A stretch of 37,670 nucleotides of DNA, taken from an uncultured Coriobacteriia bacterium (GTDB lineage: Bacteria > Actinomycetota > Coriobacteriia > Anaerosomatales > PALSA-660). The position numbers and the translations under genes were made by a program. The stretch covers positions 1-37,670 of the forward strand of contig CAIKZH010000099.1 of assembly GCA_903831865.1 (NCBI GenBank), written 5' to 3'. Below are positions 2,036-8,047 of this stretch, piece after piece. The notes beneath the pieces are model-generated. The model saw nothing but the letters and a program-made list of their open reading frames with translations, did no database searches and was not told the DNA's origin. Positions within the stretch are counted from its first letter, which is position 1. Every line of letters begins with the position of its first letter.

Positions 2036-3865
2036 GTGTCACGCATCTCGGACGAAGACGTCCAGCGCGTCCGCGACGCGACCGACATCGTCACCTTCAT
2101 CTCGGAGACGGTCCCTCTGCGGCAGAAGGGGAGGCTGTTCTGGGGCCTGTGTCCCTTCCACGGCGAGAAGACGCCGTCGTTCAAAGTGGACCCCGCCACG
2201 CAGCTGTGGCACTGCTTCGGCTGCGGACTCGGGGGTGACGTGTTCGGCTTCCTCATGCGCGCCCAGAACCTCGATTTCCCCGATGCCGTGCGTCTGCTCG
2301 CCGATCGCGCGCGGATCGAGATCGTCGAGGAGGGCGGCGGCGTGCCACGCGGCCGCCGTGAGCGCCTGATCGCCGCCTGTGGCGCCGCGGCGGAGTTCTT
2401 CGCGAAGCAGCTGGCATCGTCGAAGGAGAGCGGCGCCGAGACCGCGCGCCGCTACCTCGCGAACCGAGGGCTGAGCTCGCAGGTGGCCAAGCGATGGGGG
2501 CTGGGGTACGCGCCCGCGGGTCCGTCGGCGCTCGCGAAGTGGCTGGCGGCGCATGAGGTCGTGCGCGACGAGGCCATCGAAGCCAACCTTGCCATGCCGG
2601 CTGAGGGCGGCGCGCTGCGTGACCGCTTCCGCGACCGGATCATGTTCCCCATCCCGGATCTCCAGGGGCGAGTGATCGCTTTCGGAGGGCGCGTCGTGGG
2701 CGACGGGCAGCCGAAGTACCTCAACTCCTCCGACACGCCGATCTTCCACAAGTCGGCGAATCTCTACGCGATCGATCGCGCCAAGACGCAGATAGTGGCG
2801 ACCGGCACCGCTGTGGTCGTGGAGGGCTACACGGATGTGATCGCGCTGCACGAGGCGGGAGTGGGCAACGCGGTCGCAACCCTGGGCACGGCTCTCACCG
2901 CCGAGCATGTCAAACTGTTGGGAAGGTTCGCGAAGCGCGTCGTCTACCTGTTCGACGGGGACGAGGCCGGGATGCGCGCGGCCGATCGCGCAGCGGAGTT
3001 CATCGATTCTACGGCCACGCCGGAGGCCGGCAGCTCACGGCTCGACCTGCTCGTCGCGATGCTGCCTCTCGGACAGGACCCGGCTGACCTTGTGACCGCC
3101 TCCGGCGCCGACGCCGTACGGCAGGTGATCGACTCTGCGCAGCCTCTGCTACGATTCGTGATCGATCGTCGGCTCGCCGCGCACGACCTCGCTTCCCCTG
3201 AGGGGAGGAGCCGGGCCCTCGCGTCGGCGGCCGGCGTGCTGGCGAGCGTGCGTGGGTCGCTTCTGGCGCAGGACTATGCGAACTACGTGGCGGAGCGTCT
3301 GAGCACTGACTACGCGACCGTCCAGGCGGCCTCGCGCGCCGCCCGGGCCGAGTTCGGAGGGCGGGCGGACGCCGCGGTGACCGAGGAGCCGCCTGCCGTT
3401 TCTGCGTCCCGCGCCGTCGGCGCACGCTCCGGGACCGAGAAGGAGTTGCTTCGGGAACTGGTCGCGGCTCCGTCGCTGCGCTCGAGGGTACAGGACTTGC
3501 TTGCATTCGAGGGCGCCCTCACGGATCCCGTGACGAGGCGGCTGGTTGAAGCGGTGGCAGGGGCGGGCAACGCCACCGGAAAAGCGCTCTACGAGATGTT
3601 GGCCACGACCGACCGCGACGCGACCGAGGCGATCTCCACCTTTCTGGTCGAGCCCTTGGACCCGTCGGAGGCGGAGGAGCGCTTCAGCGCGACCTCGAGT
3701 CGCTTGAAGGAGTTGGCGCTGAGCGCAGGGATCGCAAGGCTGCAGACGGAGATGCGATCCGCGACCGCAATGAAGGAATCAAAGGATTGCGACGAACTCT
3801 TCCTGAGGATCGCCGCGATGCAGGCGCAGCTCGCCGGTCTGCGCGCTTCTGTCGAAAGCCGGTGA
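2036..3865 (+). CDS. dnaG: DNA primase
   Basis: Synthesises RNA primers at the replication fork together with the replicative helicase. The N-terminal CHC2 zinc-binding domain has C39-x2-H42 and C60-x2-C63. The catalytic core follows, with a Toprim motif: the acidic [16 protein letters not shown] segment near residue 262 and the YLFDGDEAG segment near 307, which supply metal-binding Glu and Asp. The C-terminal ~150 residues are the less conserved helicase-interaction part. Length, 609 aa, is normal. The start is GTG with an aggagggag Shine-Dalgarno site just upstream. rpoD begins 26 bases after the stop, so the two are probably co-transcribed. Confidence 0.96.
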
Positions 3866-3891
3866 ACCGTCCGAACGGTGTGAGGAGAAAC

Positions 3892-5313
3892 GTGAGCGGA
3901 AAGACAGTGAAAGAGTCGTTGCTCGAGGGAACCAAGACCAGGGCCAAGGCTCCTGCCAAGACGGAGGCGGCTCTCGACACCGCCGTCGCGGTCGGACAGA
4001 TCGCGGAAGCGGGGCCGGCGAAGGTCACACCGGAGCTGGCGCTGCCCGAAGTGGTCACCCTCGTCAAGATCGGCAAGGCCAAGGGCAACCTCACACAGGA
4101 CGAGATCGATGCCGCGCTCTCGGACATCGAACTGTCCGAAGAGCAGGTCGACAACGTCTACACGCACTTCGTGAAGAGCGGGATCGATATCGCCGAGGCC
4201 GTTGTGGACGTGACTTCGGAAGACGCCGCGATGATCCACGAGGCGGACGAGGTGTCGGCGACGCTGACCGGCTCGCTGGCCGCCGAGGTCCCAGCCGACG
4301 TGGTGGAGGTCCTTGTGACCCCCGCGCCCAGGCCCTCGCGCGCCAAGAAGAAGAAGCCGCGCCGCCGCGCCGACCACTCATCGCTCGCTCCACTGACCTC
4401 CGACCCGGTGCGCATGTACCTGAAGGAGATCGGCAAGGTGCCTCTGCTGACGGCGGCCCAGGAAGTGAGTCTGGCGAAGAGGATCGAGGCGGGGCTCGCG
4501 GCCGCAGCGGAGATCGAGGATGCCGAGGCGAAGAGCGTCAAGCTCGATCGGGCAACGATGCGCGGCCTCCAGCGTACCGAGGCCGACGGGCTCAATGCCA
4601 AGCGCGCGCTCGTCGAGGCCAACCTGCGACTCGTGGTGTCGATCGCGAAGCGCTACGTGGGTCGCGGGATGCTGTTCCTCGACCTCATCCAGGAGGGCAA
4701 CCTCGGACTGATCCGTGCCGTCGAGAAGTTCGACTACACGAAGGGCTACAAGTTCTCCACCTACGCGACGTGGTGGATCCGGCAGGCCATCACGCGGGCC
4801 ATCGCGGACCAGGCCCGCACCATCCGCATCCCCGTGCACATGGTGGAGACCATCAACAAGCTCATCCGGGTGCAGCGCAGCCTTCTGCAGGAACTCGGCC
4901 GCGAGCCGATGCCCGACGAGATCGGCGCGCAGATGGAGATGACCGCGGAGCGCGTGCGGGAGATCCTCAAGATCTCGCAGGAGCCGGTGTCCCTCGAGAC
5001 GCCGATCGGCGAGGAGGAGGACAGCCAGCTCGGCGACTTCATCGAGGACTCCGATGCGATCGCGCCGCCCGACGCCGCCAACGAGACGATGCTTGCCGAG
5101 CACCTCGGCCGCGTGCTGGACTCGCTCTCCGAGCGCGAGCGCAAGGTCATCGAACTGAGGTTCGGGCTCATCGACGGTCATCCTCGCACGCTGGAGGAGG
5201 TCGGCCGCGAGTTCGGCGTCACGCGCGAGCGCATCCGGCAGATCGAGAGCAAGACGCTGTGCAAGCTCCGTCATCCGAGCCGCTCCAGCCGGCTGAAGGA
5301 CTACCTGGAGTAG
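3892..5313 (+). CDS. rpoD: Primary sigma-70 factor
   Basis: Housekeeping sigma factor directing RNA polymerase to -35/-10 promoters. The GTG at 3892 was chosen because GAGGAGAA lies three bases upstream; starting earlier would overlap dnaG. Of 473 residues, a region 1.1-like segment lies at about 45-95 and a basic stretch (AKKKKPRRR) precedes region 1.2 ([12 protein letters not shown], near 171). Region 2 holds [37 protein letters not shown] and the promoter-melting segment [15 protein letters not shown]. Region 4.2 has the helix-turn-helix [20 protein letters not shown] at about 435-455. It ends the dgt-dnaG-rpoD run, and a strong hairpin terminator follows within 30 bases. Confidence 0.97.
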
Positions 5314-5666: not shown

Positions 5667-5937
5667 GACAAACAACCCGGCGACCTGCGGACAGCTGCGC
5701 CAGACTCGCCGGGATGGATCCGCCCAATCGCCATGGTCAGGTGATTCCTCAAACGAGCCTGACTGGCGCGGGGACTCCCGGCGGCTGCGTCTGCGGGAGC
5801 CGCGACACCATCGCCGGAGAAAACGACGAGGTCAGGGCCCCTGACCTCCACTAATACCGTACCACGATTCCGGCCCGAGAACGAGTCCTGTATTCGCCGC
5901 AGAAGGCGCGTATAACACCGTAGCTGAGGTGATGCTC
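5667..5937 (+). other. Intergenic region with two hairpins after the CAT tRNA
   Basis: No convincing gene. Two inverted repeats are present. The first is CCCGGCGA (5676-5683) pairing with TCGCCGGG (5706-5713), ten bases after the tRNA and a plausible terminator for it. The second pairs CGCGG (5767-5771) with CCGCG (5800-5804) and, after a three-base bulge, CTCCCG (5775-5780) with CGGGAG (5794-5799), enclosing a 13-base loop. The second could be a further terminator or a small structured RNA. Confidence 0.4.
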
Positions 5938-6525
5938 GTGATCGTTCCATCGTGGCAGGACCCTGTCCACATTCAGCTCGCGAGCGCCGTCCGTGAGCTC
6001 GAATCCTGCAACCGTGAGATCCAGCGCTACGGGCTGTCGCTCACGACCGGCGACATCCATGCTCTGGTCGCAGGGCGGCGCGAGTCGCTTGGATCGAGCG
6101 ATCGGGTCGAGTTTGGCGGAGGCGTTGTCAAGCAGATCGTCCTGGCGTTCGCCGCCTCGCCGTTCGTGTCCCAGGAGAACTTCGTGCCGACGGTGCTCGA
6201 GCTGCAGGAGCTCTTCTACGACTTCAAGAACGAGTCGCTGGAGCAGATCCCCGACGACGACCTGATCACGAAGATGCGGTCGCTGTTCGACGAACCCTCA
6301 GAAGGGGATCTGGCCTACCTCGCGGAGGCGCTGTTCGACGGGCTTGCGCGCCACGTCCGCGAGCAGGCTGTCGGATCGATCGCCGACGACGATGCGGCTG
6401 ATCCTGACGCCGACCGCGCCGCCGCGAACGCGCTGACGCTCGCGCATCACCGCTTCGACGTGTCGAGCTGGGTCGACGACACGTACGCACCCGGCTGGGA
6501 GGGCTCGAGCTGGCTCGACGAATAG
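5938..6525 (+). CDS. DUF6323-like protein of unknown function
   Basis: A soluble 195-residue protein without signal peptide or membrane helix. From memory it follows the pattern of the DUF6323 family: an N-terminal helical part (ELESCNREIQRYGLSLT), then ESLGSSDRVEFGGG, AFAASPFVSQENF and ELQELFYDFKNES, and an acidic C-terminal half. The last ~50 residues (rich in D and A, ending GWEGSSWLDE) look like a lineage-specific tail. The GTG at 5938 was chosen because GAGGTGAT at 5926-5933 is almost identical to the anti-SD complement and spaced correctly; ATG 5932 or GTG 5929 would overlap it. The next gene starts 12 bases after the stop, so the two form an operon. Function is unknown. Confidence 0.8.
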   Translation: MIVPSWQDPVHIQLASAVRELESCNREIQRYGLSLTTGDIHALVAGRRESLGSSDRVEFGGGVVKQIVLAFAASPFVSQENFVPTVLELQELFYDFKNESLEQIPDDDLITKMRSLFDEPSEGDLAYLAEALFDGLARHVREQAVGSIADDDAADPDADRAAANALTLAHHRFDVSSWVDDTYAPGWEGSSWLDE

Positions 6526-6536
6526 AGGAGCGGCGC

Positions 6537-7445
6537 GTGGCCGATGAGAACGCACTGGTCCGGCCTGATGTGCCGAACGCGGATCGGGGGCTTGTGGCGC
6601 CCGAGGACATCGCCGCCTTCCAAGAGCGGTTCATGCGGCTGCTCGAGCGGCACACCGCGATCTACACGATGGGTGACGCCACGTCCGTGCCCACGCACGT
6701 CGCCGCCGACCTGCTGCGGTCGGTCGCCTTTGTGCTCGGCATCGATCTCGAGCGCCCGGAGGTCCCTGAGCGGCTGCTGACCGTAGACCTCGAGGACGAG
6801 TTCCGCCGCAACCTTGCCGAGATCGGGCGCAAGGTCGAGTCGAGCGGTGAACTCTGGCGCGAGGTGGTCTCCACGCTCCCGCCGATCCCGAGCATCGCCT
6901 TGCGGGACACGATCGCGGCCATCGGGGACTTCCCGCGGCTCTACGACCTCCGCTCGATGGCGCACGACATCCCTGTCGTCTTCGACTACCCGCTCTGCCA
7001 CCCGGTGCCGGACACGCTGTTCGGCGTGGACTACATCAACGAGTATCTGAGGCGTCTTCTGGTGGAGGGCGACTTCCTGCGGCACTTCGAGGTCGAGGAG
7101 TGCGTGCGCGTGCTCGAGTGCAGCGGCCCGGACTTCGAGGACCTGCTCGTGAACCTGTACGAGCCGGTCGCCACGAACGCGATCGGACGAGCGCTGACCG
7201 GCGAGGACCCCCGTCGGCTGCGCATCACCGACGAGGGGCGCGCCGAGATCGCGTTGCGGTTGGGACCGTTGACCGCAGTGCAGCGAGAGCGGGCGATGTC
7301 CGAGGCCGCATCGGTCACGTGTGACGCCATGGGCATCGATGAGGACGGCGGCAGGGAGTACCTGCGCTCGCTCGTGCCCGAGTTGCTCCCGCGCATCGAA
7401 GTAGGGCTGGCGCACGGTGACCTCAGGGGCGTGTTCGTGGGCTGA
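6537..7445 (+). CDS. DUF6179-like protein of unknown function
   Basis: A 302-residue soluble protein, GTG start with agagga eight bases upstream, 11 bases after the preceding stop. It matches my memory of the DUF6179 family, which is usually encoded beside DUF6323: a conserved TAIYTMGDATSVPTHVA stretch near residues 40-56 and the VFDYPLCHPVPDTLFGVDY stretch near residue 150. It is predominantly helical with many acidic residues, with no recognisable catalytic motif apart from the single conserved cysteine in YPLCHPV. Co-occurrence implies that the two products act together, possibly as a complex. A hairpin terminator follows at 7543. The family assignment is from recall and the function is unknown. 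Confidence 0.8.
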   Translation: MADENALVRPDVPNADRGLVAPEDIAAFQERFMRLLERHTAIYTMGDATSVPTHVAADLLRSVAFVLGIDLERPEVPERLLTVDLEDEFRRNLAEIGRKVESSGELWREVVSTLPPIPSIALRDTIAAIGDFPRLYDLRSMAHDIPVVFDYPLCHPVPDTLFGVDYINEYLRRLLVEGDFLRHFEVEECVRVLECSGPDFEDLLVNLYEPVATNAIGRALTGEDPRRLRITDEGRAEIALRLGPLTAVQRERAMSEAASVTCDAMGIDEDGGREYLRSLVPELLPRIEVGLAHGDLRGVFVG

Positions 7446-7663: not shown

Positions 7664-8047
7664 TCACTTCGCTTCTTCTGGGACGCGCTTCAGCAGTTCC
7701 ACGAGCATCTTCTCGGCAGCGTCGGCGTTTCTGTACGTCGCTTCCGCGACCGCCTCGGAGTGCACCTGGACCTTGTTGGCGCTGTTCTGCAGCACGGGGA
7801 GCATGAGGAGCTGGATCACCGTCTGAGACAGGAAGGCGGCGACGATGACCAGCACGGACAGCGCGCTGACCCAGTGCGGGAAGGACGCGCCGAACAAGGT
7901 CAGCACCTGGATGACGAGACCGGGAAGCGCCACGACGTCGAGCGCTACGCAGAACCAGAAGAAGCTCATGGATGCTCCGAGCGCCGACAAACGGTCCGAC
8001 ACGCGGGTGTCGATATCCTGAATGACGTCTTTCGCATGCGTCGCCAT
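7664..8047 (-). CDS. Small membrane protein with two TM helices
   Basis: A 127-residue protein with an N-terminal ~22-residue amphipathic segment (KDVIQDIDTRVSDRLS). Two hydrophobic helices follow at about 24-50 (FFWFCVALDVVALPG...) and 59-85 (VSALSVLVIVAAFLSQ...). The C-terminal ~40 residues are charged and helical (SEAVAEATYRNADAAEKML), probably cytoplasmic. The overall plan resembles small DUF1003-like integral membrane proteins, but I could not confirm a family. The ATG at 8047 has ggaagga about 12 bases upstream. It converges on the DUF6323/6179-like operon and is divergent from the GAF/SpoIIE phosphatase gene. Confidence 0.75.
   Translation of the reverse strand: MATHAKDVIQDIDTRVSDRLSALGASMSFFWFCVALDVVALPGLVIQVLTLFGASFPHWVSALSVLVIVAAFLSQTVIQLLMLPVLQNSANKVQVHSEAVAEATYRNADAAEKMLVELLKRVPEEAK

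Follow-up and report, generated by a model that had tools for sequence, protein, structure and literature searches.

A near-obligate pair of uncharacterised genes, DUF6323 and DUF6179, proposed to encode one complex in Bacillota and Coriobacteriia-type bacteria

The DNA analysed here (hereafter the window, meaning the whole stretch) comprises 37,670 nucleotides of contig CAIKZH010000099.1 from an uncultured Coriobacteriia bacterium (assembly GCA_903831865.1). A first-pass annotation of the window had singled out two open reading frames at 5938–7445, lying 11 bases apart, as a DUF6323/DUF6179-like pair, and both the coordinates and the gap are as it had placed them. The features of the locus are listed below.

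5828–5848, no strand assigned: palindrome (arms of 10 bp) that precedes the pair, about 89 bases before GTG 5938
5926–5929, plus strand: GAGG, likely ribosome-binding site of the DUF6323 gene, 8 nt before GTG 5938
5938–6525, plus strand: DUF6323 gene, an open reading frame of 195 aa with its Pfam match at residues 20–143, then a variable acidic tail
6526–6530, plus strand: AGGAG, likely ribosome-binding site of the DUF6179 gene, inside the 11-base gap
6537–7445, plus strand: DUF6179 gene, an open reading frame of 302 aa, of the short form; the clostridial long form has a further C-terminal domain

The two genes lie on the same strand and are separated by positions 6526–6536. Three candidate starts (GTG 5929, ATG 5932 and GTG 5938) are available to the DUF6323 frame, which stops at 6523–6525, and GTG 5938 fits best because of the GAGG at 5926–5929. 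The DUF6179 frame starts at GTG 6537 and its stop ends at 7445. To the 5′ side of the pair lie rpoD (which matches annotated rpoD genes), tRNA-Asn and tRNA-Met, and to the 3′ side a minus-strand open reading frame at 7664–8047. The palindrome at 5828–5848 is possibly an operator on the plus strand or a terminator-like element for the minus strand, judging from its sequence; of 2000 stretches of 250 bp drawn at random from the window, 3.35% contained arms this long, and inspection by eye of the palindromes 5′ of DUF6323 in relatives made no common motif evident.

The family assignments of the first-pass annotation hold, with both Pfam matches far above the curated cut-offs. The first protein matches PF19848 (DUF6323) at E 1.1e-38 (132.3 bits, cut-off 30.6) and covers profile positions 1–124 of 127; it differs from the family in its long acidic C-terminal tail and in carrying Asp at G55, a glycine in 93% of rows. 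The second matches PF19677 (DUF6179) at E 8.5e-54 (183 bits, cut-off 25) over profile positions 1–271 of 272, with His in place of E54 (90% in the family) and Asn in place of G92 (96%), and represents a short form, with no counterpart of the C-terminal helical domain found in long-form copies. Neither window protein has a match in NCBIfam, and PHROGs returned weak rows only. That these are uncharacterised families is borne out as well: both are domains of unknown function, and no enzyme family was matched in Pfam or NCBIfam. Both window proteins are plausibly soluble, since neither has a strongly hydrophobic stretch (maximum 19-residue Kyte–Doolittle means of 1.47 for DUF6323 and 1.38 for DUF6179) and both are acidic (net charges −22 and −23, respectively).

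All of the segments quoted in the first-pass annotation are present in the window proteins. Across 59 aligned DUF6323 sequences the FYxxKNE and SP motifs are conserved, and R56, S74, Y94, D106 and G123 are each kept in at least 98% of rows; ‘VSQEN’ itself is not conserved, while the next aromatic (F82 in the window, Tyr in 97%) is. Those five residues are likewise unchanged in all 20 Coriobacteriia-type DUF6323 proteins that were aligned (20 of 38 fetched), where position 97 is K or R, and E58 and E99 vary. The 70 aligned rows of DUF6179 show no substitution at S50 (in ‘SVP’) or at Y151 (in ‘DYPL’). A motif pattern in DUF6323, with weak fold rows (Z 4.0–5.3), had also prompted a comparison with the AAA+ lid-like domain ClpB_D2-small (PF10431). 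This candidate gained no support, as hhalign gave it a probability of 0.8% with 28 sequences (28 of the 30 loci returned, two contig-edge loci having been left out) and scored reversed decoys higher, at 8.6% and 3.1%.

The length of DUF6179 varies among relatives. In 54 of 76 loci the frame reaches 390 aa or more and includes an additional helical region at the C terminus, and in 20 it is shorter than 350 aa; this count left out L015, L016, L053 and L063, and the gene is short or broken in the last three. Diverged Coriobacteriia-type copies stop near profile position 182 (three checked with Pfam, the others by their profile ends).

The two genes nearly always occur together. The first-pass annotation had mentioned the same pairing in Firmicutes. 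Of 80 loci in named genomes, nearly all titled Bacillota (one, L081, is titled Bacteroidales and a few carry no group name), 79 have DUF6179 directly beside DUF6323 and on its strand; the 80th, L015, ends at a contig edge. These are the best 80 of 93 relatives from a pattern scan of named genomes. In a co-occurrence profile of 245 Clostridia-type genomes drawn around Acetobacterium wieringae, with this centre genome, a known carrier, counted in, 19 held both families, one DUF6179 alone, two DUF6323 alone and 223 neither (Fisher p 4e-25). All 19 double carriers have the genes adjacent on one strand, and the three singletons are all fragments: a DUF6179 fragment in G449, an N-terminal DUF6323 remnant in G340 and a stop-riddled trace in G542.

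Within the class of the window, DUF6179 sequence lies beside DUF6323 in 38 of 40 carriers, that is, in the window, in genome G271 and in 36 of 38 other loci (34 recognized by profile, L154 and L172 by tblastn). As for the two remaining loci, L179 contains 668 N and its tblastn match falls mostly over DUF6323, so that a partner is not countable, while L173 has a broken DUF6323 without a partner. Copies in L154, L155, L156, L169 and L172 are partial or broken. In both Bacillota and the Actinomycetota-type class of the window the pairing is thus near-obligate, which upholds, in near-strict form, the strict pairing across phyla that had been proposed.

The arrangement of the pair is also largely fixed. 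DUF6323 usually comes first, as it does by coordinates in L044 and L058; in L078, L080 and G475 DUF6179 precedes it. In L078 (6464–10506) the reversed pair is followed by a flagellin lysine-N-methylase (FliB) and an M18 aminopeptidase, and the same gene clusters follow in L080. The two genes overlap in 52 of 76 loci (L003 and L004 included; L016, L044, L058, L078 and L080 left out) when the DUF6179 start nearest the DUF6323 stop is taken, a choice that favours short gaps. Over 57 pairs, the pairwise distances among the DUF6323 proteins track those among their DUF6179 partners (r 0.80; maximum 0.28 in 1000 shuffles), a correlation owed in part to shared ancestry alone.

On a wider scale, the pair is accessory and mostly chromosomal. 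Both families occurred in the same two of 296 genomes drawn from the phylum of the window, and DUF6323 in 40 of 396 in a denser draw of its class, in 15 of 19 species genomes of the genus of A. wieringae and in 13 of 29 genomes of that of Desulfosporosinus hippei. DUF6323 was single-copy in 19 of 20 named genomes checked (20 of the 80); Pelotomaculum (G304, L017) has two copies, the sole such case. DUF6179 appeared in six of 72,556 plasmid records, and Enterococcus raffinosus copies sit on records that are labelled plasmids and measure about 1 Mb. DUF6323 was absent from 50,697 phage records and unconfirmed in viral contigs, which were scanned with one peptide pattern. In midpoint-rooted FastTree trees of 57 pairs, which included two of the 40 Coriobacteriia-type carriers (the window and G271, of the same class), both fell among short-form Clostridia-type copies. 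They join each other in the DUF6179 tree (0.985), inside a group of eight (0.90); in the DUF6323 tree they are not directly joined and a well-supported group of ten holds both (0.971). Gene transfer between phyla, in either direction, is likely on these trees. A 16S search of the window genome gave no hit; the 16S of G271 is nearest to that of Collinsella aerofaciens (87.7%) among the plasmid-collection records, which makes Coriobacteriia the probable class of both.

No third gene shares this association. Among the 80 loci, gene clusters present in four or more showed no recurrence at a fixed place outside close relatives, the exception being a TetR-type gene, and the flanks of 38 Coriobacteriia-type loci yielded no shared operon partner. 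Neighbours of at least 80 aa are oriented both ways, upstream (44 same vs 35 opposite) and downstream (41 vs 36), and the close co-directional neighbours that were scanned are diverse (GNAT, flavodoxin, metallophosphoesterase, YgjP, HTH, AI-2E transporter). In five Acetobacterium-type loci (L026, L027, L028, L029 and L040) a gene of one cluster lies directly 3′ of the pair on the opposite strand; its L026 copy is a flavodoxin-like FMN reductase. The TetR-type gene, which the window lacks, lies directly upstream of the pair in six of the 80 loci; the one copy scanned with Pfam scored 24.8 bits (cut-off 24), and none of the six reaches the NCBIfam cut-offs. It is the sole hint of the stress role that the first-pass annotation had floated.

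Two relatives carry both domains in one open frame, each domain above its Pfam cut-off and each fusion known from a single assembly.

L152 (genome G821), 2238–3854: natural single-frame fusion of the pair
L153 (genome G817), 2827–3945: natural single-frame fusion, without the N-terminal part of DUF6179

Compared with four relatives, L152 has an insertion of about 47 bases, which precedes the start of DUF6179 and joins the frames, and the fusion is for this reason not a single-base slip. The L153 fusion sits in a genome held as one contig.

Structure prediction, which the first-pass annotation had envisaged for the pair as a complex, was applied to a related pair as one read-through protein. 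The L075 pair, read through its intergenic TAA, was modelled at pLDDT 90 and pTM 0.80, with 565 of 631 residues at pLDDT of at least 70; three of the 94 alignment rows were paired, and the model was judged on its pLDDT and pTM scores. DUF6323 likely has a defined placement on DUF6179 in this model, because the pTM exceeds the value of about 0.63 that we estimate for a model in which the ordered part of DUF6323, some 135 residues, has no fixed position. The window DUF6179 alone is predicted by AlphaFold2 to be all helical (pLDDT 93, pTM 0.89). Neither the read-through model nor the window DUF6179 had a PDB fold match at E ≤ 0.001, VIA-align rows were weak (Z at most 6.2 and 4.5, respectively), and the viral structure models contained no fold match for the window DUF6179. 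Rows to trans-prenyl synthases for the DUF6179 core were also weak (no higher than Z 4.5, across some 70 residues), and sequence and profile searches of the PDB found no convincing relative of either protein. This absence of a PDB fold match does not prove a new fold. The C-terminal region of the long form, absent from the window DUF6179, bears a weak likeness (L075 model residues 499–618) to chain G of the Arp2/3 complex (Z 6.1) and to FliG (Z 5.1).

We propose that DUF6323 and DUF6179 form a single cytosolic complex as its two subunits, and that this complex has a conditional accessory role, a reading to which we assign a probability of about 0.6; its binding component is deduced from the genes and models, and any biochemical role is a guess. 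The case for one complex lies in the near-obligate adjacency, the joint presence and absence, the natural fusions and the very short or overlapping junctions. The obligate complex suggested earlier is likewise likely, given that the pairing is nearly strict and that two natural fusions exist. Both proteins would be made together from a stand-alone two-gene unit, probably with translational coupling, and the small helical DUF6323 would then dock directly on the helical core of DUF6179, and intact copies of either protein would not be retained without the other. More speculatively, the accessory function may be conditional because a one-component regulator, of TetR type in some lineages, turns it on, and the few polar residues that stay unchanged in both proteins might let the complex work as a ligand-responsive adaptor or binding unit.

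A different use of the same residues is conceivable, in which the invariant polar side chains of both proteins form one active site at their interface, so that DUF6323 would be needed for catalysis and not for binding or regulation. Such a heteromeric enzyme would suit the few near-absolute polar invariants (R56, Y94, D106 and K/R97 of DUF6323; Y151, E177 and N206 of DUF6179), and enzyme subunits are commonly found fused. However, the window proteins match no enzyme family in Pfam or NCBIfam, the PDB offers neither a convincing sequence match nor a fold match at the above threshold, and the prenyl synthase rows are unconvincing; we consider this reading unlikely. Rather improbable, in our judgement, is that the proteins are functionally linked and co-regulated and do not bind each other. 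Operon pairing is by itself no proof of binding and the gene order is reversed in a few loci, but the two fusions argue against independence, as does the finding that none of the singletons in the 245 genomes is intact.

Two further readings concern the biological setting of the pair. The small first gene, larger second gene, short junctions and patchy distribution are reminiscent of a toxin–antitoxin or phage-defence pair, yet PADLOC had no match for the window proteins or for one long DUF6179 (a DUF6323 relative gave one row at E 0.023), and the phage, viral and plasmid counts, the single DUF6323 copy in nearly all genomes checked and the broad presence in the Acetobacterium genus all speak against it, leaving it very improbable. 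Hardly more credible, and if anything less so, is the sporulation or developmental-stage module that the first-pass annotation had entertained. While many carriers are Clostridia and Spo0A_C is found in 16 of the 19 carriers, it is about as frequent in the others (177 of 226; p 0.77), three pair-carrying genomes of the Acetobacterium genus are without it, and the pair is also found in E. raffinosus and in the class of the window; this suggestion is not supported.

A stronger version of the two-subunit complex, which we put forward tentatively and at less than even odds, is an obligate, previously unreported heterodimer in which the larger subunit adopts a helical fold without a detected relative among solved structures. 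In anaerobic Bacillota and Coriobacteriia-type bacteria it would carry out a conditional chemistry, or a sensing function, outside known pathways. The DUF6323 and DUF6179 names and Pfam accessions are absent from the open-licence papers searched. Viewing the pair as one unit, with natural fusions that could be expressed as a single protein, would turn two genes without an assigned function into one testable complex, available in bacteria that can be cultured, Acetobacterium and Clostridium among them.
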